From contig CATLPG010000006.1 of assembly GCA_950054195.1 (NCBI GenBank), positions 1 through 64,000 on the forward strand: 64,000 bases of DNA, in the 5' to 3' direction. The DNA is from an uncultured Saccharospirillaceae bacterium (GTDB taxonomy: Bacteria; Bacteroidota; Bacteroidia; Flavobacteriales_D; CAJJDF01). Under the pieces are notes generated by a model. That model searched no databases, was not told the DNA's origin, and saw only the letters and a list, made by a program, of their open reading frames with translations. Positions 8,081 to 19,547 of this stretch are shown here, piece after piece. The position numbers and the translations under genes are program-made. Each line of letters begins with the position of its first letter. The stretch's first letter is position 1.

Positions 8081-8479
8081 TTACCTTGAACAAAAGGTTA
8101 TGTTTATCATAAGTTCTACTCTAACAGGTCTGCCGTTTTGTTCGCCTGGAATCCAATTAGGCATATTCCCTATTGTAGTTATAGTATTCTTTGTAATTTC
8201 ACTGTTTAACTCCAAAGCTTCAATTAATTTAACATTACTTACTTTACCATCTTTTTCAATTACAAATTGACAAGCTACTGTTTCGCAGTTAATCAATTCC
8301 CTAGGTGATTTTAGCTTTTTTCCTAAATACTCATATAGTTTATCCATACCTCCACGATAGTGAGGCATTTTATCAACTTTAGAGTAAACACTATCATTTT
8401 TTTTAACAGTTATTGTTCCTTGTTTTTGACTAAATAAAAGTGTTGGGAAAAGTATCAAAAAGTATATAATCTTTGGCAT
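8081..8479 (-). CDS. Exported stand-alone TonB C-terminal-domain protein
   Basis: The 132-residue protein has a signal peptide (MPKIIYFLILFPTLLFSQ) directly followed by KQGTITVKK and a TonB_C-like fold at about residues 35-130 (CQFVIEKDGKVSNVKLIEAL, MPNWIPGEQNGRPVRVELMI). Classical TonB has an uncleaved N-terminal anchor and a long Pro/Lys linker; both are missing, so this protein should be free in the periplasm or outside the cell. It is the last of three tandem paralogs and its start codon directly abuts the stop of the preceding one. It keeps a cysteine pair (NCETVAC) that its neighbours lack in this form. It could compete with or modulate TonB, bind peptidoglycan, or be a degenerate copy. 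Confidence 0.8.
   Translation of the reverse strand: MPKIIYFLILFPTLLFSQKQGTITVKKNDSVYSKVDKMPHYRGGMDKLYEYLGKKLKSPRELINCETVACQFVIEKDGKVSNVKLIEALELNSEITKNTITTIGNMPNWIPGEQNGRPVRVELMINITFCSR
8398..8435. repeat. 38-base direct repeat, copy 1
   Basis: This stretch is identical to 8854-8891. It covers the end of the signal peptide and the KQGTITVKK segment of the downstream TonB-domain gene. Flanking DNA has diverged, so the identity points to gene conversion or strong conservation of this junction. Confidence 0.75.
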
Positions 8480-8938
8480 CTAATTAATTTTAAAAAGGAC
8501 TGGCAAAGTATATTTAACCCTAACAGGTTTTCCATACTGAACCCCAGGTTTCCATTTGGGCATGTTATCAATTGTTTTAATCCAGCTTTCTTTGGTAGCT
8601 GGATCTATATTGGCGGCTCTCAATACCTCGATATTTGTCAGTTTACCATTTTTCTCTACTACAAAACAGATATATATTCTTGATATGTTAAGATGGGAGT
8701 GTGGAGCTTTTAAATTATTAATCAGACACCTATACATTTTCTCTTGTCCTCCTACAAACTCAGGCATAGTTTCTACTATTGTATAAACCTCATCATCTTC
8801 TATTTGCATGATTGAATCTGATGAAATTTCATCAATTACTATTTCTTGGTTGCTTTTTTTAACAGTTATTGTTCCTTGTTTTTGACTAAATGAAAAGGTT
8901 GGCACCGCTAGTGCCAACCATACTAAAAACCTAAACAT
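8480..8938 (-). CDS. Exported TonB C-terminal-domain protein (middle paralog)
   Basis: The 152-residue product has a signal peptide (MFRFLVWLALAVPTFSFSQ), the same KQGTITVKK segment as its downstream neighbour, a short acidic stretch (about 30-50) and a TonB_C-like domain at about 55-150 (MPEFVGGQEKMYRCLINNL, ICFVVEKNGKLTNIEVLRAA, MPKWKPGVQYGKPVRVKYTL). There is no membrane anchor and no linker. Its stop directly abuts the next start, and its own start abuts the stop of the anchored TonB gene upstream, so the three genes are translationally coupled or nearly so. Role unknown, probably accessory to the anchored TonB. Confidence 0.82.
   Translation of the reverse strand: MFRFLVWLALAVPTFSFSQKQGTITVKKSNQEIVIDEISSDSIMQIEDDEVYTIVETMPEFVGGQEKMYRCLINNLKAPHSHLNISRIYICFVVEKNGKLTNIEVLRAANIDPATKESWIKTIDNMPKWKPGVQYGKPVRVKYTLPVLFKIN
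8854..8891. repeat. 38-base direct repeat, copy 2
   Basis: Identical to 8398-8435; it encodes the end of the signal peptide and the following KQGTITVKK segment of the middle TonB-domain gene. Confidence 0.75.
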
Positions 8939-9649
8939 TTACTTGATTTTAAACTTTATAGGAAGCGTGTAACGAACTCTTACCGTTTTACCCCCTTGTT
9001 TTCCTGGTCTCCAATTAGGCATGCCCGACACTACTTTTTTAGCCATAGCATCCATTCCGCAACCTAGCTCTCGAGGTATTTCTATGGACGATATACTCCC
9101 ATCCTTTTCAACCACAAATTGAACATACATGGTTTGACTAACACCCATTTCTCTAAAACATTGAGTTGTTTTTAATTGATTACCTAAGTATTTGTACATT
9201 TTATCCATTCCTCCTATAAACTCTGGCATTACTTCGGCAAATATGATGGCTTCATCCAAAGGCTCTACATATTTATCACCCTCACCATCATCTATAATGT
9301 CAATTACTACATCTTTTGCTTTTTTATCCACCTTGGCTTCCGTTTGTTTCACCTTTTTTTCATCAAAGTCATCTACTATCTCTACATTTTGATCTTTTTC
9401 AGGGTTAAATTCTTTTTGTTTTACAGTTGGTTGAGTTTTTTTCGGTTTCTCAATCTCAACTTTAACTTCAACGAGGTGTTCTAGGTCAAGAACTTCGGCT
9501 GATAAATTATCTTGTTTACTTACATAAACATCATAGGAAATCCACTCGAAAGCCATTAAGGTAAAGCTTAGTGCTCCTGCTAATGCAACAAAAAACAATC
9601 CTTTGGTTTTTTTTTGCATTTCTCGTTTAAACGATTCTTTGTTTTTCAT
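8939..9649 (-). CDS. tonB: TonB energy transducer
   Basis: The 236-residue protein has the full TonB plan: a short basic cytoplasmic tail, one membrane helix at about 17-39 (GLFFVALAGALSFTLMAFEW), a charged Lys/Glu/Asp linker at about 55-130, and a TonB_C domain at about 145-236 (MPEFIGGMDKMYKYLGNQL, QFVVEKDGSISSIEIP, MPNWRPGKQGGKTVRVRYTL). It transmits proton-motive force from ExbB-ExbD to outer-membrane receptors. No exbB or exbD gene is present in the window. The motif AFEW after the helix is common in Bacteroidota TonB proteins. It heads a run of three abutting TonB-domain genes, likely arisen by duplication of the C-terminal domain. The two receptors in this window are possible clients. 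Confidence 0.88.
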   Translation of the reverse strand: MKNKESFKREMQKKTKGLFFVALAGALSFTLMAFEWISYDVYVSKQDNLSAEVLDLEHLVEVKVEIEKPKKTQPTVKQKEFNPEKDQNVEIVDDFDEKKVKQTEAKVDKKAKDVVIDIIDDGEGDKYVEPLDEAIIFAEVMPEFIGGMDKMYKYLGNQLKTTQCFREMGVSQTMYVQFVVEKDGSISSIEIPRELGCGMDAMAKKVVSGMPNWRPGKQGGKTVRVRYTLPIKFKIK

Positions 9650-9763: not shown

Positions 9764-11905
9764 TTAAACGATAAGTAGCCCCATTGATCTTAATATTTCC
9801 ATTTGATTAGAAAACCAAAACAGTTGAAAATTACCTAGGTTTTGGTTTTCAAATGCTGCTTGGAAGGATTTAAATTGAATAGGTTTTTCTTTCGCTAAAA
9901 GAAGTTGACTGGATAAAAAACTAACATTATTCTCATCCATGTTTATGGTTTCTTGCTGTGCGTTGTAAACAACTACTAAACTGTGTTTTTCTTTACTCAC
10001 ATGCATATTTCCTAGCCAAATTAGTTTATGGTTGGGTTTAGGAAATGAGCTTGTAGGAATACTTAAACAGTCATCTATGTGGTAAGGTGAGATAGTTGTT
10101 TTTGGCACTTTAAAATCAAACCATTCTTTAAGGTTTAAATCGAAACCTATTCCGTGCATGTAATTGTACAGCGACTTTTTTAGACCGTAACTAAATTTAG
10201 CATGGTTTACTCCTGTTTTATCTTTAAAGTTAATATCGTTTTTAGCAAAAGTAACTGCTGTATTTTGAGGAATTAAACCATACGTTGAAGGCTCTTTTCC
10301 TATAGGGCTATGGGCTGTCATTGCAAATTGGTGCCAAAATGCTGATTGTAGAATTCCTAGTTCAAATAATTGGCGAACCATTTCTAAACTATCAATGGTT
10401 TCTTGTTCGCTTTGAGTTGGGTATCCATACATTAAATATGCATGAACCATAATGTTTGCTTCTGTAAAATTTTGAAGCACTCTTGCCACTTGCTCAATGG
10501 TTATGCCTTTATCTATAAGTTTTAATAATCGATCAGATGCTACTTCTATTCCGCCAGTTACAGCAATACAGCCTGAGGCTTTTAAGAGCTCGCACAAATC
10601 CTTTGTAAAGCTTTTCTCAAACCGAATGTTTGTCCACCATGAAACAATTAGTTTCCTTTTAATAATTTCGATAGCAACTTCCTTCATTAAGCTTGGTGGT
10701 GCTGCTTCATCTACAAAATGAAACCCTCTTTCTCCTGTTGACTCTATCAAGATTTCCATTTTGTCTACTATTACCTTTGCTGCTAGTGGCTCATAAACCG
10801 AAATATAATCTAAAGAGATGTCGCAAAAGGTACATTTTCCCCAGTAACAACCGTGAGCCATTGTAAGTTTATTCCACCTTCCATTACTCCATAGGCTGTG
10901 CATGGGATTAACCATTTCAATTACTGAAATATACTTATCTAAAGGTAAATCAGAGTAATCTGGTGTTCCTGTTTGAGAAAACTTATAATCTGATTTAGTA
11001 CTATTATTTACATAATTAACCTGATCCACTTTTAGAAGAAAAGTTCTTTTAAACTCTGATGCACCAGTATTAATATGATCTATTATGTGCTCGATAGGTA
11101 GTTCACCATCATCAAGTGTTATAAAATCGAAAAACTCAAAAACTCTTTTATCCTTTAACTCCCTGAGTTCAGTATTCGGATAACCTCCACCCATAGCAAT
11201 TTTTACATCAGGATAAAGGATTTTTAGTTGTTGGGCGCATCTAAAGGCACTATAAAGGTTGCCTGGAAATGGTACCGAGAAACAGATCAATTTTGGGGTA
11301 TGACCAACTAGTTTTGCTTTTAAAACTTCAAATGAAAGTTGATCGATAAAAGTTGGTTCGTCTTTTAAAGCCAAATATAAATCATCAAATGAGTTGGCAG
11401 ACATTCCTAATCGTTCGGCATACCTGCTAAAGCCAAAATTAGGATCTATGGTTTCTTTAATAAAATCGGCTAGGTCGTCTAAAAAAAGTGTTGCTAAGTA
11501 CTTTGCTTTATCGTGATTCCCTATTTCACCGAATGACCAATCTAAATCAACCACTTCATCAAATCTAGAGCCTTTGGGTAAAAAGTCATTAGAAGAAATT
11601 AGAGGTATTAATGTATTGTTTTTGCCTTGTAAAAACTCAATAACAACATCTATTTTGTTAAGGTATTCTTCTTTTTGATTAATTATTAGCTGACTATTAT
11701 CTGATAATGTTTTTGACTGTTCAGCTATAGTGAAACAATTGGTTAGTTCTTTTTTGGAAAAGAGTTTATTAATTACCTCTATTCCTAAATCTATTTGAAG
11801 GCTAGAGATATTTTTAGTGTTAAGAAAACCCTTTAGGTAGCAAGTTGCTGGATAGGGTGTGTTTAACTGGGTAAAAGGTGGCGTTATTAAAATTATTTCT
11901 TCCAA
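9764..11905 (-). CDS. B12-binding-type radical SAM protein with C-x4-C-x2-C motif
   Basis: The 713-residue protein has an N-terminal segment resembling a cobalamin-binding domain (IILITPPFTQ; ICFSVPFPGN, IAMGGGYPN, DFITLDDGE up to about 275), then a radical SAM core. The cluster cysteines are C353, C358 and C361 (HGCYWGKCTFCD): a C-x4-C-x2-C spacing instead of the usual C-x3-C-x2-C. Later motifs include HFVDEAAPP, GCIAVTGGIEVASDRLL and YLMYGYPTQSEQE, which fit this superfamily. It should bind a 4Fe-4S cluster and SAM and carry out a radical methylation or rearrangement on an unknown substrate. The start is TTG at 11905: an in-frame stop lies two codons upstream and the PPF motif must be included. 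A terminator hairpin for the upstream gene ends about 12 bases before this start. No precursor peptide or obvious pathway genes are adjacent. Confidence 0.85.
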   Translation of the reverse strand: MEEIILITPPFTQLNTPYPATCYLKGFLNTKNISSLQIDLGIEVINKLFSKKELTNCFTIAEQSKTLSDNSQLIINQKEEYLNKIDVVIEFLQGKNNTLIPLISSNDFLPKGSRFDEVVDLDWSFGEIGNHDKAKYLATLFLDDLADFIKETIDPNFGFSRYAERLGMSANSFDDLYLALKDEPTFIDQLSFEVLKAKLVGHTPKLICFSVPFPGNLYSAFRCAQQLKILYPDVKIAMGGGYPNTELRELKDKRVFEFFDFITLDDGELPIEHIIDHINTGASEFKRTFLLKVDQVNYVNNSTKSDYKFSQTGTPDYSDLPLDKYISVIEMVNPMHSLWSNGRWNKLTMAHGCYWGKCTFCDISLDYISVYEPLAAKVIVDKMEILIESTGERGFHFVDEAAPPSLMKEVAIEIIKRKLIVSWWTNIRFEKSFTKDLCELLKASGCIAVTGGIEVASDRLLKLIDKGITIEQVARVLQNFTEANIMVHAYLMYGYPTQSEQETIDSLEMVRQLFELGILQSAFWHQFAMTAHSPIGKEPSTYGLIPQNTAVTFAKNDINFKDKTGVNHAKFSYGLKKSLYNYMHGIGFDLNLKEWFDFKVPKTTISPYHIDDCLSIPTSSFPKPNHKLIWLGNMHVSKEKHSLVVVYNAQQETINMDENNVSFLSSQLLLAKEKPIQFKSFQAAFENQNLGNFQLFWFSNQMEILRSMGLLIV

Positions 11906-11916
11906 AAATTATAGTA

Positions 11917-11949
11917 TAAAAAAACCTGCAATAGTAACTATTGCAGGTT
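11917..11949 (-). terminator. Intrinsic terminator after the lipoprotein gene
   Basis: AACCTGCAATAG (11923-11934) and CTATTGCAGGTT (11938-11949) form a perfect 12-base stem with a 3-base loop, followed on the minus strand by a run of T. It ends transcription of the gene at 11976-12692 and lies just before the radical SAM start. Confidence 0.85.
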
Positions 11950-11975: not shown

Positions 11976-12692
11976 TTATTGCTTTGTATAGGTTGCTGTT
12001 CCTCCACTAGGTTGTGATAAACATCCAGAGCAATTAGTAATAATGTAATTTATAGTTATTTCATCACCACTGTTGTTAATTGATCCTGTTCCTTCAAGTG
12101 TATAAGTTGAACTAACATTAACAGTGATATCGTTAGGCCCCATAGTTATGTTTTGCCCAGAAGCCGTACCCTCAGTTATTTTGTTTCCTCCTGTACCATG
12201 ATCGAACGTATAGAAACCTCCGAAGCCATTAACATTACAAGGGCTTTTTAATAAATCTGTTGGAAATATTCCTCCTGTAGTTACATCATGAACAACATCC
12301 CAGTCTCCTTCCCAGTTTTCTTCTGCTATCGCAACATTAACTGTTCTAGAAGCAGTAGCTTCATTGCCTGCTGCATCCGTAGCACTAAACTCAACCTGAT
12401 AAGATCCTGCTGTAGCAGTATTTACATTAGAAGTATTTGTAACTACTGTTATAGTGTCTCCATTGTCATCTATTGCTATTGCACCAGCATCAGCATAGGT
12501 AGCTCCAACAGCTACATTAACTGGGTTTAATCCCAACACATTAATGGTTGGCGCTGTAACATCAGTTGGTGTTTGATTCCCCTGATTGTTATTAGTACTA
12601 TTACCACTGTCAACTGGATCTTCTTTCTTTTTACAAGATGCAATTGTTAACGCTCCTAAAAGGAACAAGCTTGATAATTTAATGACTTTCAT
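11976..12692 (-). CDS. Lipoprotein with a bacterial Ig-like (DUF5011-type) domain
   Basis: The 238-residue product has a lipoprotein signal (SLFLLGALTIASC, lipid-anchored Cys at 20) followed by a Lys/Glu and an Asn/Gln/Ser-rich spacer to about residue 42. Residues about 45-125 are an Ig-like repeat (VTAPTINVLGLNPVNVAVGA, FSATDAAGNEATASRTVNV) of the kind seen in surface proteins that bind polymers or other domains. Residues 128-238 look like a small beta-barrel/lipocalin-like domain with cysteine pairs (SPCNVNG, TNCSGCL). It is probably outer-membrane anchored, perhaps surface exposed. A strong terminator follows. The function is unknown. Confidence 0.8.
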   Translation of the reverse strand: MKVIKLSSLFLLGALTIASCKKKEDPVDSGNSTNNNQGNQTPTDVTAPTINVLGLNPVNVAVGATYADAGAIAIDDNGDTITVVTNTSNVNTATAGSYQVEFSATDAAGNEATASRTVNVAIAEENWEGDWDVVHDVTTGGIFPTDLLKSPCNVNGFGGFYTFDHGTGGNKITEGTASGQNITMGPNDITVNVSSTYTLEGTGSINNSGDEITINYIITNCSGCLSQPSGGTATYTKQ

Positions 12693-12759: not shown

Positions 12760-15000
12760 TTATAGCTTATTGAACTTTCTGATAATGTTGGTTTTATCTC
12801 CTCTAATTATTAGTTGGTATGTTCCGCTTTGTAAATTATTAATAGAAATTGTTTTTGAAGCATCTTGTGTTTCTCCTATTTGAATCGTATTAATAACTTG
12901 CCCCACTGAATTAACAATACTTACAGTTGTAGCCTCTGATTCATTTAAAGAATAACTAACATTAATATTATCTAACGCTGGGTTGGGGTATAAATCTACT
13001 TTTACAGCATTTACATTTTCTTCAATTGATGTTGGAGTTGTAACACAAGGAGCTGTAGTTTCAACTCTAGTCATTGTAGTAAAGTCTATATAACAAGCGT
13101 AGTGCATGCTATCAATAAATGGATTTCTATTCCCTTGTAAAGACTCGATATAATCATTTCTTGATCTTTCATAATCAGAAACAGGATCCATCCAGTGCCA
13201 AGACTTAAGGACATCTTGGTCTTGTCCATAAGGTGTAAATAAATCAATAGGGTTAGGAAAACTCCAGTTATTACCGCTTATGCTATTGTATGTAACAGCT
13301 TGGTAAAACATCGCTCTAGCTGCATCACCTTTATGGTCATCTCTTGGCTCGTAAACATTGTTTCCATTTACATCTAAGCCATATTTACCATCTTTAAACT
13401 GACTTGTAACCGTAACAACTACACCTAATGGATTATTACTTCTAACTCCATTAGCATTATTTTGGTTTACTGGAAACAAGTTGTGATAATCGGCATATTC
13501 TGGTGTATTCTCAAAAGCACTCGTACTTAACTGTGCCCAAGTAGGCATCCAACTTTGTGGATAACTATGCTCTCTCGTTATGTAATTAAACGCAAATGGC
13601 TCATCATAAATATGTTCATCACTTGTATACCTACAAGTAACTACTTTTTGACCATTAGTTGTGTCTCTAGAAGCGAACTCATCAATATACGTATCATCAA
13701 AATCTCCATAAAAAACTCTTGTATGAGGATTAATTAAAGCGTGTAAGTCGTCAATAAATGAAGCACTGCTTGTTTGAATTGAACTGTAATAATTTGGTGC
13801 TTGCATTGAGTTTGGCATTGTTACTGATTGTGAACCTGCCACCGAATATTTTGTATATTGACCAACCCCACTATAAGCATATACGGCTAAATGGTGTGTT
13901 TGATTAGCTCTGGTTTCTTTTGATAAGTAAGTTAAATCAGTTCCAGCGTAGGCAACCTTAGCATCTCCTACCATATCACCAGGTGTGTATCTTACACCGT
14001 CAGTTGGGTTTGAGCTAGGCGCGCTTCCTTTTTTGAAAAGAACCAAATAGCCTTCGTCATTTAAAGGTGTTGTTGGTGTAATAGTTGCTGTATACCTGTA
14101 TGTAGTAACATTAGATATTGCTATAGATGGAGCTGATGGTTGAGTTGCAAAACCATCTCCATAACCAACTAAATTAAGCGTGTAAGGATTTTCGTTAGCA
14201 TCATTATTAGTAATTGTTAATATACTCGTTCTAGTACCAGCTGAAGCTGGTGTAAAATCAATATTAATATTACCTGTTCCGTTTGCTATTACACTACTAT
14301 CAATTGATGTTACTGTAAACTCTGTTGAGTTAGAGCTAACAACACTAGATAAATCTAATGTACTATCTGTACCATGATTTTCAATTACTATTTGAAAGCT
14401 ATTTGTATTCCCTACGTTTTCTGCAACATATATATTACCATCACTAAAAACTGTATCTCCTAAAAACACAGCATTTATTTCTGCTTCTGGCTTAGGTAAT
14501 GGTCCTGAAATATTTATTTCATCCAGCGAAGTATTGTATCCTGATACTTTATCAGTATAGTAAAATCTAACAAAACGAGTTGTTGCTAATAGTGTATCTG
14601 CATACATTACGTTTCCACTTATGCTTAGTTCCCCATTTGTAAAAGACCTTAAATTAGTCCATGTAGTTCCATTATTCGAAATTTGAACATCAAAAGCCCC
14701 CTCCCATGGAGCTGTAGGTGTAGATGGAGGGTTTGTTCCTCTCATATGGTATGTTAACCTACCTGCTTCTGCTGCTAGTTCAATTTCTAAATATTGATCA
14801 TCACCATTTAACTTTAATGATGATCCGTTATTAATTCCTAACTGAGAATAATTTGTAGGAGGAAAACTTACGGGACCGATTGAGTAACCAACTGGTAAAT
14901 TGCCCGCATCTGTACAATCCCAGTACGTTGGAACTGGTGCCTGAGCGTATGATTGAGCTGTTATTGCCCCTATAGTTAATAATTGAATAATTCTTTTCAT
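12760..15000 (-). CDS. T9SS-secreted endonuclease I family nuclease
   Basis: The 746-residue protein has a signal peptide, an N-terminal beta-sandwich region (to about 170), an ASH/HYDIN-like domain at about 185-280 (NIDFTPASAGTRTSILTIT), a linker, an endonuclease I domain at about 400-640, and a C-terminal T9SS sorting domain (VDLYPNPALDNINVSY to IIRKFNKL). The nuclease motifs are EHSYPQSWMP, with H478 matching the catalytic His, and DYHNLFPVNQNNANG (H506), as in the EndA/NucM/Vvn family that cuts DNA and sometimes RNA without sequence preference. It should be anchored on the cell surface or released. It is the last gene of a three-gene operon, starting 10 bases after the TonB receptor. That context suggests extracellular nucleic acid degradation coupled to uptake. 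Nuclease identity is strong; the substrate in vivo is inferred. Confidence 0.9.
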   Translation of the reverse strand: MKRIIQLLTIGAITAQSYAQAPVPTYWDCTDAGNLPVGYSIGPVSFPPTNYSQLGINNGSSLKLNGDDQYLEIELAAEAGRLTYHMRGTNPPSTPTAPWEGAFDVQISNNGTTWTNLRSFTNGELSISGNVMYADTLLATTRFVRFYYTDKVSGYNTSLDEINISGPLPKPEAEINAVFLGDTVFSDGNIYVAENVGNTNSFQIVIENHGTDSTLDLSSVVSSNSTEFTVTSIDSSVIANGTGNINIDFTPASAGTRTSILTITNNDANENPYTLNLVGYGDGFATQPSAPSIAISNVTTYRYTATITPTTPLNDEGYLVLFKKGSAPSSNPTDGVRYTPGDMVGDAKVAYAGTDLTYLSKETRANQTHHLAVYAYSGVGQYTKYSVAGSQSVTMPNSMQAPNYYSSIQTSSASFIDDLHALINPHTRVFYGDFDDTYIDEFASRDTTNGQKVVTCRYTSDEHIYDEPFAFNYITREHSYPQSWMPTWAQLSTSAFENTPEYADYHNLFPVNQNNANGVRSNNPLGVVVTVTSQFKDGKYGLDVNGNNVYEPRDDHKGDAARAMFYQAVTYNSISGNNWSFPNPIDLFTPYGQDQDVLKSWHWMDPVSDYERSRNDYIESLQGNRNPFIDSMHYACYIDFTTMTRVETTAPCVTTPTSIEENVNAVKVDLYPNPALDNINVSYSLNESEATTVSIVNSVGQVINTIQIGETQDASKTISINNLQSGTYQLIIRGDKTNIIRKFNKL

Positions 15001-15010
15001 TGGTTGTTTT

Positions 15011-17749
15011 TTAAAATATTATTTGTAATGAAAGGTTGAACCTTCTTCCTTGTCCGAAAAATACAGATGCTGATGCAGCATCAAAGTTACTTGTTGGACT
15101 AGTAAAAGGGTCGTTATTTTGTGCATCAGAAATGTACTCCGTGTTTAATGCATTTAATATACTAAATCTTATACTAACAGGTACTTTTTCTACTTTAATT
15201 GTTGTTCCTGCATGGATATCCATTAACCCATAAGTTGGTATTTGCCATGATTCCCTACCAGCATTTTCACCATTAAGATTGCTTGGTTCAAAATCGGCAT
15301 AGTAACGATCAAACCAAGTGTATTGGGCTTTAATGTATGATCTTTTTGTTAAGTTCCATCTTATTTTACCTCCTAATTGAGTTTGAGCAGCATCTCCAAC
15401 ATGAACTCCTGTTGCATCAAAAGATGCTGTTAAGTCATTTCCGAAGTCATCTTGTATTGCATTACCTGCGTTATCAAAAAACTTAATACTATCTCTTCCT
15501 GATTGCCAAGTCCAATCTCCTAAAGAAGCCATACCTTCTACAGTAACAGTTGGCAAAACATTATAAGCTACTTCAACCTCAACACCTGTATGTAAAGCAT
15601 CCATTGTAATGTTTGAGGTGAAATTTTCATTATCTGCTCCCACTAAACTTATAGAGTATGGTCTGTCAACCCACTCTGTATAGTATGTATTAACATTAAC
15701 GGCTAGCTTATTTTTTTTGTACGCATAACCCAATTCAACAGCTCTTACTTTTTCATTTTTAACATCTTTAACAAAATCATTTCTTTGGTCGATAACATTG
15801 TTAAACTTTGGAGCATTATTTAAGTAGCCAAGGTTAGCATATACATTAGATGACTCGTTAATTATATAATTGGCTCCTGTTTTAATAGTAAAACCTGGAA
15901 TTGTTTTCCATCCTGTTTCATATGTTTTTAAACCCTCAGAGTCTCTTGTGTAAGTTTGTCCGTTGTATGATACAGTATCAGTATAACCAACAGCTAGCGT
16001 AGTATCACCTACTTCTATTACTTTTTCTCTAAAGTAATCAACCCCGTTGTATTGAGAAGCAGATCCTGAAAAGCTAATAAATGCTGACCATAAATCCTTT
16101 TTATACTCTGCTTGAGCAAACAACCCTCCCCATCTTACTTGACCTTCATCATAATATTCAATTCTATCACCTATTCTTTTTACACCTGCTGTTTCGTTTT
16201 GATTTCCGTTTCCAACCATATAGTCTGCTCCAACTAAATCGTAAACCTCTCTGTAATGAATACCTCTGTATGATCTTAAGTCAATTCCTCCTGATATAGT
16301 TAAATTATCACTTTTTACATATGTGGCTGTTGATAATAAACCATACCAACGATGGTTATTTATACTACTAAACTTATAAGAGCTTGCTTTTAAATCTGTA
16401 GGGTGATAATTTGGATCTACAGGAGGTCCAAAATCTCCACTGGTATTACTGTTATAGATAAATTGAGCGTCTAATTGTCCATTTGAGTCTAAACCAGGAT
16501 TATTTTTAATTCCTGTTCCGCCTCCATTCCCAATTGACATGTATGCAATATTGGATACATAAAACTTATCATTTACTTGCCAAAAGTCCTTTAGTGTAAA
16601 TTGCGGTTTATTGTAATAGTTTTCTCTTTCATATAATGTTACTACCTCTCCATTAGCTTTTGTATAGTTCCCCCAGAACTCGTTGTGTCTAAACCCTCTA
16701 TTTGATCCAAAAGCTTGATCATAAAATGCAATTTCTTCAGAGGTTACTCCAAGCTTTTTTGCTTTGGTACTATCAAAAAATGAAATTGGTTTTTTAAATG
16801 AACGTTGTCCATGACTTTGTGGTGCGGCAAATGCAGAAAAGCTTAATAAGTGGCTTTTAATTCTTTTTTCTACTTTTCCATAAAAGAACATACCATCAGT
16901 ATAATTTTTTTCTACCCATCCTTGACCAACTTTTCTTGAAAATGCACCTGAAAAACCCCAACCACCTTTTAGTTTTCCTGTATTCATTCCTACTGATTGC
17001 CTAAAAAACCCATTGTTACCAAACTCAAGCTTCACTTTAGTTTCTGGCTTAGCATCAATTCCTTTGGTAAAAATGTTCATTGTACCACCAACAGATGGAA
17101 CTGCCAACTTAGATATCCCTAGCCCTCTTTGTACTTGAATTTTACTAGTAACCATATCTAAACCAAACCAGTTAGACCAATACACCCAACCGTTTTCCAT
17201 GTCGTTTACAGGTACACCATCTATCATTACCGCTAGGTTTCTTTGGCTAAAACCTCTAATGGTTATTCTTGCATCTCCATCTCCACCTCCTTGCTGAGTA
17301 GCATATACACTAGGCGTACTTTGTAATACCATAGGTAAGTCTTGTGATGCTAGTTCTTCATCCAGTTTAGCTGGAGTAATGTTTGTAAAAGCAACAGGTG
17401 TTTCTCTTTCCTTTGCAATATCAGCAACAACTTGAACTTCACGCATTACTTTTGAAGACATTTTAACATCTACTACAGCTGTTTTAGAAGAAACTGTAAC
17501 CTTTTTTGTAACTGTGTTTAGTCCAACAAAAGAATAAGATATTGTGTAATCACCATAGGGTAATGACAACTCATATTTACCATCAAAGTCAGATGTTACA
17601 CCTTTTCCTGGAGCATACACTACATTTGCTCCAAATAAAGGTTCTCCTGTAACCTCATCGGTAATTGTTCCAATAACCTTACCATTTTGCGAAAAAAATC
17701 CTATTCCTGCAAGCAAGAATAGGATTAAGTTAAAGCTTTTTAGAGTCAT
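15011..17749 (-). CDS. TonB-dependent outer-membrane receptor of the nuclease operon
   Basis: The 912-residue protein has a signal peptide (SFNLILFLLAGIGFFSQ), a carboxypeptidase-like domain at about 23-105 (GTITDEVTGEPLFGANVVYA, SDFDGKYELSLPYG), a plug at about 120-225 (ITIRGFSQRNLAVMIDGVPV, GWVYWSNWFGLD, SVGGTMNIFTKG) and a barrel ending RRFNLSLQIIF. It is shorter than the other receptor of the window. It lies between the genes for a lamin-tail-domain protein (10 bases upstream) and endonuclease I (10 bases downstream), so it is probably the importer for what these two secreted proteins capture or release, such as DNA fragments, nucleotides or a bound metal. No SusD gene is present. The substrate is inferred from context alone. 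Confidence 0.93.
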   Translation of the reverse strand: MTLKSFNLILFLLAGIGFFSQNGKVIGTITDEVTGEPLFGANVVYAPGKGVTSDFDGKYELSLPYGDYTISYSFVGLNTVTKKVTVSSKTAVVDVKMSSKVMREVQVVADIAKERETPVAFTNITPAKLDEELASQDLPMVLQSTPSVYATQQGGGDGDARITIRGFSQRNLAVMIDGVPVNDMENGWVYWSNWFGLDMVTSKIQVQRGLGISKLAVPSVGGTMNIFTKGIDAKPETKVKLEFGNNGFFRQSVGMNTGKLKGGWGFSGAFSRKVGQGWVEKNYTDGMFFYGKVEKRIKSHLLSFSAFAAPQSHGQRSFKKPISFFDSTKAKKLGVTSEEIAFYDQAFGSNRGFRHNEFWGNYTKANGEVVTLYERENYYNKPQFTLKDFWQVNDKFYVSNIAYMSIGNGGGTGIKNNPGLDSNGQLDAQFIYNSNTSGDFGPPVDPNYHPTDLKASSYKFSSINNHRWYGLLSTATYVKSDNLTISGGIDLRSYRGIHYREVYDLVGADYMVGNGNQNETAGVKRIGDRIEYYDEGQVRWGGLFAQAEYKKDLWSAFISFSGSASQYNGVDYFREKVIEVGDTTLAVGYTDTVSYNGQTYTRDSEGLKTYETGWKTIPGFTIKTGANYIINESSNVYANLGYLNNAPKFNNVIDQRNDFVKDVKNEKVRAVELGYAYKKNKLAVNVNTYYTEWVDRPYSISLVGADNENFTSNITMDALHTGVEVEVAYNVLPTVTVEGMASLGDWTWQSGRDSIKFFDNAGNAIQDDFGNDLTASFDATGVHVGDAAQTQLGGKIRWNLTKRSYIKAQYTWFDRYYADFEPSNLNGENAGRESWQIPTYGLMDIHAGTTIKVEKVPVSIRFSILNALNTEYISDAQNNDPFTSPTSNFDAASASVFFGQGRRFNLSLQIIF

Positions 17750-17759
17750 TTCTGTTTGT

Positions 17760-18695
17760 TTATTTTACAGATAATTTTTTTGTTCCTATTGAACCATTTT
17801 CAAATTGTACTGAAATCAAGTAAACTCCTTTATCCCAAGAGTTAGTTAGCAACCTGTAAACATTACTTCCACCTACTTTTTCTGAATATATCTCATTACC
17901 AATTAGACTAAATACTTTTACAGAAGCTATGTTGTTTTTTCCAATAACTGTGGCTCCATCAGCATTAGTTGGATTAGGAAACAAATTAAAGTTCGCCTCA
18001 GTGTTCTCGTTAATACTTGCTGGATTACAATTACAGTTATGAAAACCTAGTTGATCAAATGTATTAGCAGGTAAAGAATCCCATTCTGTAGCAGGAACAA
18101 AAGAAGTGCCATCTCCTGCTGGTGCAGGTAAAGTGGTTAAACTACCAGATGTAACTGAAGATTTCCTAACTAAGGTGTGATCTTTTGTCCAAGCAATATT
18201 AGCTCCAATCGGCCATCCAAATTTAGGATCACTAGATCCAGTAGCATTGTTTAAAACCTCAGGGTCTTCACCAGGAGTACCTACTGCATCAATTGGTGCT
18301 GAGCCTTTAAAAAGAACCACAGCATCATTTCCATTCCAGAAGAAAGTTCTATTAATATTGTAATCTGGCCCTAAGTATGCATCTGCTTTAACATATAAAC
18401 TATCCCATACAACGTCTCCAGCTGTACTGTCTTTAACAAACACATATACATCTTTTGGCTGAACAGTTCCAGATAATGTTAATGTATAATCTGCGGATGC
18501 AGAAGTACTACCATTAGAATATCTTTTAATAGAGTATGCTGATAAATCTATTGGATTATCAGTTGGATTATAAATCTCTAACGCTCGGTTGTTAGACCAA
18601 CCATCAAGAAATTCTGATATGAACACCTCATTACATTGAGCCAAGAATGCTGTTGAAGATGTTAATGCTAAAATAGAAAGTAGTGTTTTTTTCAT
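17760..18695 (-). CDS. T9SS-secreted lamin-tail-domain protein
   Basis: The 311-residue protein has a signal peptide (MKKTLLSILALTSSTAFLAQ), a lamin tail domain at about 22-165 (EVFISEFLDGWSNNRALEIY, NPTDNPIDLSAYSIKRYSNG, NDAVVLFKG) and a T9SS sorting domain at about 232-311 (FNLFPNPTNADG to KKLSVK). Bacterial lamin tail domains are found in exported proteins, often with nuclease or phosphoesterase partners, and are thought to bind nucleic acid or protein. Here there is no catalytic domain; the nuclease is encoded two genes downstream. It heads the operon and is divergent from a Crp/Fnr regulator, with 156 bases between the starts. A plausible role is a surface adhesin for extracellular DNA; this is inference. 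Confidence 0.85.
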   Translation of the reverse strand: MKKTLLSILALTSSTAFLAQCNEVFISEFLDGWSNNRALEIYNPTDNPIDLSAYSIKRYSNGSTSASADYTLTLSGTVQPKDVYVFVKDSTAGDVVWDSLYVKADAYLGPDYNINRTFFWNGNDAVVLFKGSAPIDAVGTPGEDPEVLNNATGSSDPKFGWPIGANIAWTKDHTLVRKSSVTSGSLTTLPAPAGDGTSFVPATEWDSLPANTFDQLGFHNCNCNPASINENTEANFNLFPNPTNADGATVIGKNNIASVKVFSLIGNEIYSEKVGGSNVYRLLTNSWDKGVYLISVQFENGSIGTKKLSVK

Positions 18696-18728: not shown

Positions 18729-18736
18729 CAAAAGTA
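18729..18736 (-). promoter_or_regulatory. -7 box TACTTTTG of the lamin-tail/receptor/nuclease operon
   Basis: On the minus strand TACTTTTG matches TAnnTTTG exactly, about 34 bases before the start at 18695. The expected -33 TTTG is missing at the right distance, which suits a promoter needing an activator. Confidence 0.45.
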
Positions 18737-18756: not shown

Positions 18757-18772
18757 TAACCCCCCTAGGTTA
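18757..18772. promoter_or_regulatory. Inverted repeat TAACC-N6-GGTTA upstream of the nuclease operon
   Basis: Perfect 5-base arms flank CCCCTA. The centre lies 32 bases upstream of the centre of the -7 box, about position -40, where class II activators of the Crp family bind. The regulator gene at 18852 is a natural candidate. The same arms and spacing recur at 6718-6733. Confidence 0.4.
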
Positions 18773-18839
18773 ATTTATTATTAATTGGTGTAGTTTTAGT
18801 GATTAACACATCCCTACAACTTAAATAAACTTTTTTTAC

Positions 18840-18851: not shown

Positions 18852-19547
18852 ATGCAATTCTTAAAATCAAATAATTCAAGCTCACACAAATGCTTTTTTA
18901 GTGGGTTAACACGTGAACAGATAGTTTCTCTTGAGCTTGAGGAAATAGACACTACCTACTTACGGGGTGATTTGATTTTTAGAGAAGGTACTTACCCAAA
19001 ATCTCTTTTTGTTGTTTATCGCGGAGCTGTTAAAGTTCATAAATATGGCGACAACGGAAAGGAGCAAATCACTCGATTAGCTCAACCTGGTGATTTGCTT
19101 GGATATAGAGCTCTTTTAGGAAACCAACCATATAAAGCTAACGCCACGGCATTACAGGAAACGAAGGTTTTTAAAATACCGGGCAAAAGTTTTATCAATC
19201 TACTTAAAACAAATGCTGATTTTTCATTTAAGGTGATGGAATTATTATCAGATGATTTAAAGCATGCAGAGGATAAGCTATTAAATATGGCTCAAAAATC
19301 TGTTAGAGAAAAAATTGCTGAAACACTTGTTCTACTTTACGAAAAGTTTGGATTAGACGAATCTAGTGCAATAAACTCGAAGCTTACTCGAAAAGAAATC
19401 GGTGATATAGCTGGAACAACAACAGAATCGACTATTCGAACAATATCTGATTTTAATAAAGAAAATATTGTTCAAATTAATGGAAAGAAGCTCATCGTGA
19501 ATGATATAAATTTGTTAAAAAACGAATTGCATAATAAAATTGCATAG
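18852..19547 (+). CDS. Crp/Fnr-family transcription regulator
   Basis: The 231-residue protein has a cyclic-nucleotide-binding-like beta-barrel at about 25-125 (LRGDLIFREGTYPKSLFVVY, RGAVKVHKYGDNGKEQITRL, PGDLLGYRALLGN), a dimerisation helix and a C-terminal winged helix at about 155-225 (LTRKEIGDIAGTTTESTIRT). There is only one cysteine (C14), so an Fnr-type iron-sulfur cluster is unlikely. The ligand is unknown; many Bacteroidota members lack a defined effector. It is divergent from the lamin-tail/receptor/nuclease operon, and an inverted repeat lies about 40 bases upstream of the inferred start point of that operon, so local control is likely. The VWA gene follows after 39 bases. Confidence 0.9.
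   Translation: MQFLKSNNSSSHKCFFSGLTREQIVSLELEEIDTTYLRGDLIFREGTYPKSLFVVYRGAVKVHKYGDNGKEQITRLAQPGDLLGYRALLGNQPYKANATALQETKVFKIPGKSFINLLKTNADFSFKVMELLSDDLKHAEDKLLNMAQKSVREKIAETLVLLYEKFGLDESSAINSKLTRKEIGDIAGTTTESTIRTISDFNKENIVQINGKKLIVNDINLLKNELHNKIA

Follow-up and report, generated by a model that had tools for sequence, protein, structure and literature searches.

A set of three genes on the minus strand of the window, that is, the whole 64,000-nt stretch of DNA analysed here, encodes a lamin-tail-domain (LTD) protein, a TonB-dependent outer-membrane receptor (TBDR) and an exported endonuclease I (Table 1). The open reading frames agree exactly with the first-pass annotation, which had described three minus-strand genes separated by 10-nt gaps (gene 1/gene 2 and gene 2/gene 3). 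The possible fourth gene, encoding an Ig-like lipoprotein, is found in three tandem copies in L040, a locus from the same genus, is absent from other relatives and is followed in the window by a strong terminator-like hairpin (11923-11949).

Table 1. Genes and sequence features in and around the three-gene set (positions in the window).
Feature	Position	Strand	Description
Divergent CRP/FNR-type regulator	18852..19547	+	Shares a promoter region with gene 1; candidate regulator
Palindrome GTTRAYAAWTTRTYAAC, weak copy with 3 mismatches	18769..18785		Possible regulator site
TAnnTTTG element (TACTTTTG)	18729..18736	-	Probable Bacteroidota -7 promoter element upstream of gene 1
LTD protein (gene 1)	17760..18695	-	311 aa; signal peptide, LTD 21-140, conserved 140-225 region with CxC, T9SS type A tail
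Terminator-like hairpin	17697..17726	-	13-bp stem, 4-nt loop, then T run; inside receptor signal-peptide codons 8-18
TonB-dependent outer-membrane receptor (TBDR, gene 2)	15011..17749	-	912 aa; CarboxypepD_reg-like, plug and barrel; no SusD partner
Exported endonuclease I (gene 3)	12760..15000	-	746 aa; ASH/choice-of-anchor-D-like domain 195-270, Endonuclease_1 470-631, T9SS type A tail
Ig-like lipoprotein (possible fourth gene)	11976..12692	-	238 aa; 67 nt downstream of gene 3

Pfam searches matched gene 1 to the LTD (residues 21-140; 2.9e-15) and T9SS tail (3.9e-7) models, the receptor to CarbopepD_reg_2 (1.3e-15) and Plug (8.4e-13), and gene 3 to Endonuclease_1 (residues 470-631; 7.5e-28) and the T9SS tail (8.2e-12). 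With a C-terminal Por_Secre_tail each, the products of genes 1 and 3 belong to the type A cargo of the T9SS, as had been claimed for both. Likewise, the description of the receptor as one lacking SusD is borne out by the scanned neighbourhood, since no SusD or glycan-enzyme domains were found by Pfam among the genes scanned between positions 8081 and 20918. The same neighbourhood contains, near the receptor operon, genes for three consecutive proteins, each with a C-terminal TonB domain (8081-9649, minus strand), and, downstream of the operon, a gene for a radical SAM protein of 713 aa that contains a weakly matching B12-binding-like region (9764-11905, minus strand).

Gene 3 is the only endonuclease I gene in the genome. 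Its product scores 98.3 bits against Endonuclease_1 (PF04231; cut-off 25), which places it within this family, and shows a profile match to the Vibrio nuclease Vvn (1oup) at 1e-12. The nuclease motifs, previously read as intact, are indeed maintained among 21 homologues, with H478 being invariant and H506 nearly so; E477, R520, N522, K557 and R562 are conserved as well. The AlphaFold model of the receptor is an ordinary barrel of TonB-dependent transporters (TBDTs), resembling PqqU/YncD, Fiu and FecA in a search that does not tell substrates apart.

The three genes are a real unit, which recurs across Bacteroidota far above chance. When the receptor alone was searched in 40 related genomes and the regions around 20 matches were read, the receptor was preceded by an LTD-protein homologue in 16; the remaining four (L051, L052, L058 and L059) harbour distant receptors, about 30-35% identical. 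Receptor-only retrieval from public genomes yielded 80 loci, 75 of them with an LTD gene directly upstream; three of the five loci without one start at a contig end. LTD-only retrieval from 296 Bacteroidia genomes, in turn, produced 74 strong matches, 68 of which lie directly upstream of a receptor. Across these 296 genomes, the receptor is present in 69 of the 70 that carry the LTD gene versus 4 of the 226 that do not (Fisher p about 2e-61, to be taken as 'very strong' only, because score and coverage decided which receptor rows were counted as clade members). Roughly one in four of the Bacteroidia genomes sampled has the module. Thus, co-occurrence of the triplet, for which the first-pass annotation had called for a check across Bacteroidota, is beyond chance.

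The third gene is a nuclease in 63 of the 65 complete cases from the receptor-only retrieval, so that related receptors are accompanied by nucleases of two unrelated folds rather than by unrelated enzymes, the outcome that the first-pass annotation had named as refuting its proposal. With the window included (n = 66), Pfam assigned 35 third genes to Endonuclease_1 and 29 to PLDc_2, the two non-nuclease genes being those of L089 (DUF5689 only) and L138 (metallo-beta-lactamase fold); in L101 and L130, a PLD-type gene is located upstream of the LTD gene instead. The PLD-type third gene of one further locus (L056:9465-11500), in which the triplet is otherwise normal, carries one in-frame TAG and represents either a pseudogene or a sequencing error.

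A tree inferred for 142 receptors by quick search, without bootstrap, unites all LTD-linked receptors in one branch (103 rows, SH-aLRT 100), and receptors outside this clade lack an upstream LTD gene. Within the clade, third genes of the endonuclease I type (51 rows) and of the PLD type (38 rows) replaced one another on at least 10 occasions (shuffled mean 28.8), a count that is approximate because some forks of the tree are weak. For instance, such a switch separates the close relatives L063 and L069. Both HxKxxxxD motifs are kept in all 29 PLD-type proteins, and DUF5689, an OB-like domain, is present in 40 of the 66 third genes of the clade and absent from the nuclease of the window. Judging from these sequences, the chemistry appears to have been kept while the enzyme was replaced. 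The alternation of two unrelated nuclease folds in one slot is the best evidence for nucleic acid as the substrate, and the replacements represent a natural experiment on what stays conserved.

Sister receptors of families f3, f10, f63 and f72 were considered as members of the module and rejected, as they fall outside the clade and mostly occur in other contexts. In two of the sister loci (L232:3552-9452 and L243:4573-9656), the receptor is followed by a lipoprotein and then, as the second gene downstream, by a protein combining an Ig domain with endonuclease I, possibly a parallel receptor-nuclease set. In two others (L240:10340-13174 and L241:9719-12556), the gene directly after the sister receptor encodes a protein that combines two LTDs with a plastocyanin-like, copper-binding domain, an OB-like/DUF5689 region and a T9SS tail.

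In 24 loci of one lineage, several of them labelled Crocinitomicaceae, a split 5'-nucleotidase is encoded directly downstream, in tandem, by genes that touch or overlap by a few bases: a lipoprotein with the 5'-nucleotidase C-terminal domain is followed by a Metallophos protein with an ILHTND motif. The genome from which the window derives encodes the same pair elsewhere, on contig C74. Such a pair would complete the breakdown to nucleoside and phosphate, and its tandem position in one lineage favours nutrition as the purpose of the module.

Of the three proteins, the LTD protein is understood least. Its closest NCBIfam model describes the N-terminus of the extracellular nuclease ExeM (9.7e-19), which degrades DNA in vivo even without its LTD (PMC6085458). 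The protein is acidic (pI 4.3, net charge -12), as are the 58 homologues in the family alignment (median pI 4.2), and its AlphaFold model (pLDDT 89.7) has only lamin A/C and T9SS tails as structure matches, none of them nucleic-acid binding. A role as a scaffold or in surface retention would, on sequence and model, be as likely as the capture of DNA. The initial proposal that the operon captures DNA, cuts it and imports the products stands in part: the nuclease pairing across the clade and the nucleotidase of one lineage support it, whereas capture of DNA by the acidic LTD protein, import of DNA fragments rather than of nucleotides or of nothing, and a purpose in nutrition rather than transformation are putative. 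LTD domains are common in the genome (20 matches), and the paralogues away from the receptor, read by eye, show no obvious nuclease fusion. Contig C49 of this genome carries a second LTD pair (L275:9266-11628), consisting of an LTD+DUF5689+T9SS protein followed by an LTD+T9SS protein, beside which no receptor or nuclease was recognised.

The hairpin early in the receptor gene (-15.8 kcal/mol, z -5.9) occurs at the same receptor codons in all seven family loci, where 98.9% of its pairs are formed, compared to 41-56% when the position is slid. Covariation is modest, with one pair changed on both sides in seven sequences, and the evidence for the hairpin lies in its conservation, its energy and its repeated occurrence at this junction. 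Terminator-like hairpins were found at 31 of 85 LTD-receptor junctions, against 0.4 expected from shuffles, and are located in the intergenic gap in other lineages; only 2 of 80 receptor-nuclease junctions have one. Where the LTD-receptor gap measures 40-79 nt, a hairpin is present in 18 of 27 cases and mostly ends 14-24 nt before the receptor start, leaving no room for a separate promoter. Transcription therefore probably gets to the receptor by reading through the hairpin, with the LTD protein probably made in excess. The hairpin is thus probably an attenuator between gene 1 and genes 2 and 3, so that the three genes may differ in their level of transcription. Placed inside signal-peptide codons, it would be a compact means of setting protein ratios within an operon.

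Upstream of gene 1, a TAnnTTTG element occurs within 140 nt in 42 of 77 loci versus 6.5 in shuffles. The palindrome GTTRAYAAWTTRTYAAC, which lies some 85 nt ahead of gene 1, is exact in five family loci and degenerate in the window; confined to the family of the window, it was discarded as a general operator. The CRP/FNR-type neighbour is kept in sister-genus loci and absent in L040. Given this distribution, neither the palindrome nor the regulator forms part of the explanation proposed below.

On balance, we favour the reading that the genes form an outer-surface module for the utilisation of nucleic acids, which we consider reasonably probable. The T9SS-exported endonuclease I, replaced by a PLD-type nuclease in relatives, would cut extracellular DNA and perhaps RNA. 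The probably abundant LTD protein, also exported to the surface, would act as an accessory that holds the nuclease or the substrate near the receptor, and the latter would take up the oligonucleotides or nucleotides thus released. In the periplasm, phosphate and nucleosides would then be freed by 5'-nucleotidases, which one lineage encodes in the same operon. The hairpin early in gene 2 would set the expression of gene 1 above that of genes 2 and 3. The sequences provide the gene set, its conservation, the intact catalytic motifs, the export signals, the nuclease replacement, the nucleotidase linkage and the hairpin, from which we infer DNA cutting in vivo, import, the nutritional purpose, the role of the LTD protein and attenuation. 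Against utilisation count the modelled barrel, which is like those of small-ligand TBDTs, the acidity of the LTD protein and the confinement of the nucleotidase linkage to one lineage. More tentatively, the clade as a whole might represent a TonB importer for nucleic-acid fragments with exchangeable nucleases and an attenuator in signal-peptide codons, which might also feed transformation; if true, this would make it the first family of TonB receptors dedicated to pieces of DNA.

The main alternative, which we regard as unlikely, is that the receptor serves natural transformation as an outer-membrane DNA entry channel, with the nuclease making the entry ends, in bacteria without type IV pili. 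Transformation in Riemerella anatipestifer needs the TBDR-like RA0C_RS04915 together with RA0C_RS04920, its DUF5689/DUF5017 partner (PMC8459023), and is inhibited by tonB mutations (PMC8383284); furthermore, we found loci of matching make-up (f32), and DUF5689 recurs in the third genes of the clade. However, the f32 receptor has no homologue in this genome at E<=1e-5, so that orthology with the f32-type receptor fails, and the f32 loci are equated with the Riemerella operon by matching domains and gene order, not by named sequence. The nuclease of the window lacks DUF5689, and the 5'-nucleotidase linkage and the exported nuclease point to degradation rather than transformation. In the f32 loci (L263-L274), an Exo_endo_phos_3 nuclease gene is divergent from that of the TBDR-like protein, which is followed by a DUF5689(+DUF5017) lipoprotein; the available portion of the Riemerella paper makes no mention of a nuclease adjoining the operon (PMC8459023).

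It is rather improbable that DNA is merely degraded at the surface, for biofilm matrix turnover, destruction of competitor DNA or escape from traps, with the receptor not importing the products and instead aiding export or anchoring or importing something unrelated. The T9SS tails indicate that the partners act outside, protease secretion in Myxococcus needs the TBDT Oar (PMC6434023), and the sister receptors outside the clade occur in other contexts, mostly without nucleases. Yet the T9SS alone suffices for export, and the strict receptor-nuclease pairing across the clade, together with the 5'-nucleotidase linkage, is hard to explain without a common substrate. That this substrate is another phosphodiester, such as phospholipid head groups, an idea prompted by the fact that PLD-type enzymes, with two-HKD domains in 29 of the 66 third genes, include phospholipases, is highly improbable, because the other half are endonucleases I, which belong to a family with nucleic acids as known substrates (Vvn) and alternate with the PLD type within one receptor clade, and because the OB-like DUF5689 is so frequent among the third genes.

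Bacteroidota take a leading part in breaking down extracellular DNA in sediments and sludge; active DNA degradation and periplasmic nucleotidases are described for them (PMC8289736, PMC11495043). For the passage of the pieces across the outer membrane, the module supplies a defined candidate set of one receptor, one accessory protein and an exchangeable nuclease, making TonB-based DNA foraging or uptake directly testable. A literature search in a limited collection retrieved no paper combining TonB, LTD, endonuclease I and extracellular DNA.

Several known systems resemble the module in part. Shewanella ExeM has an N-terminal LTD region that matches the LTD protein, as well as OB-like and nuclease domains, but is a single polypeptide with an EEP nuclease and without a receptor (PMC6085458). 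The Riemerella operon shares a CarboxypepD_reg-bearing outer-membrane receptor and offers a DUF5689 surface partner, whereas its receptor belongs to a remote subfamily, its proven role is transformation and no LTD protein or endonuclease I is reported for it (PMC8459023). The DNA-degradation loci of Ca. Izemoplasmatales similarly co-locate nucleases, an LTD protein and transporters for DNA foraging, but belong to another phylum with another envelope type and lack a TonB receptor and T9SS (PMC8289736). As in SusCD-type polysaccharide utilisation loci, a surface enzyme, a TonB receptor and a surface accessory protein are combined in one operon, with a nuclease in place of glycan-active enzymes and without the SusD-like partner. 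Another such system is the phosphate-starvation response of Flavobacterium johnsoniae, also a member of Bacteroidota, which comprises Pus, orphan TBDTs and the nucleases EndA1 and EndA2 and couples TonB-dependent transporters to phosphodiesterases: phosphate starvation induces several TBDTs as well as two nucleases of the LTD+endonuclease I type (PMC8115612). Pus loci contain SusCD-type complexes or lone TBDTs. The module matches Pus in linking a TonB-dependent transporter to phosphodiesterase or phosphomonoesterase genes (a nuclease in nearly all complete loci, 5'-nucleotidase in 24) and lacks a PusC-PusD (SusCD-like) pair; because orphan TBDTs are also Pi-induced in the Pus organism, the missing SusD excludes only PusCD membership. 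The best reading of the module is therefore a PUL- or Pus-like utilisation locus for nucleic acid without SusD, with phosphate and nucleosides as the gain. In EndA1 and EndA2, the LTD and endonuclease I are joined in one secreted protein, and both are listed as orphans outside any receptor operon (PMC8115612), whereas in the module the LTD protein, the receptor and the nuclease are separate genes of one conserved set.
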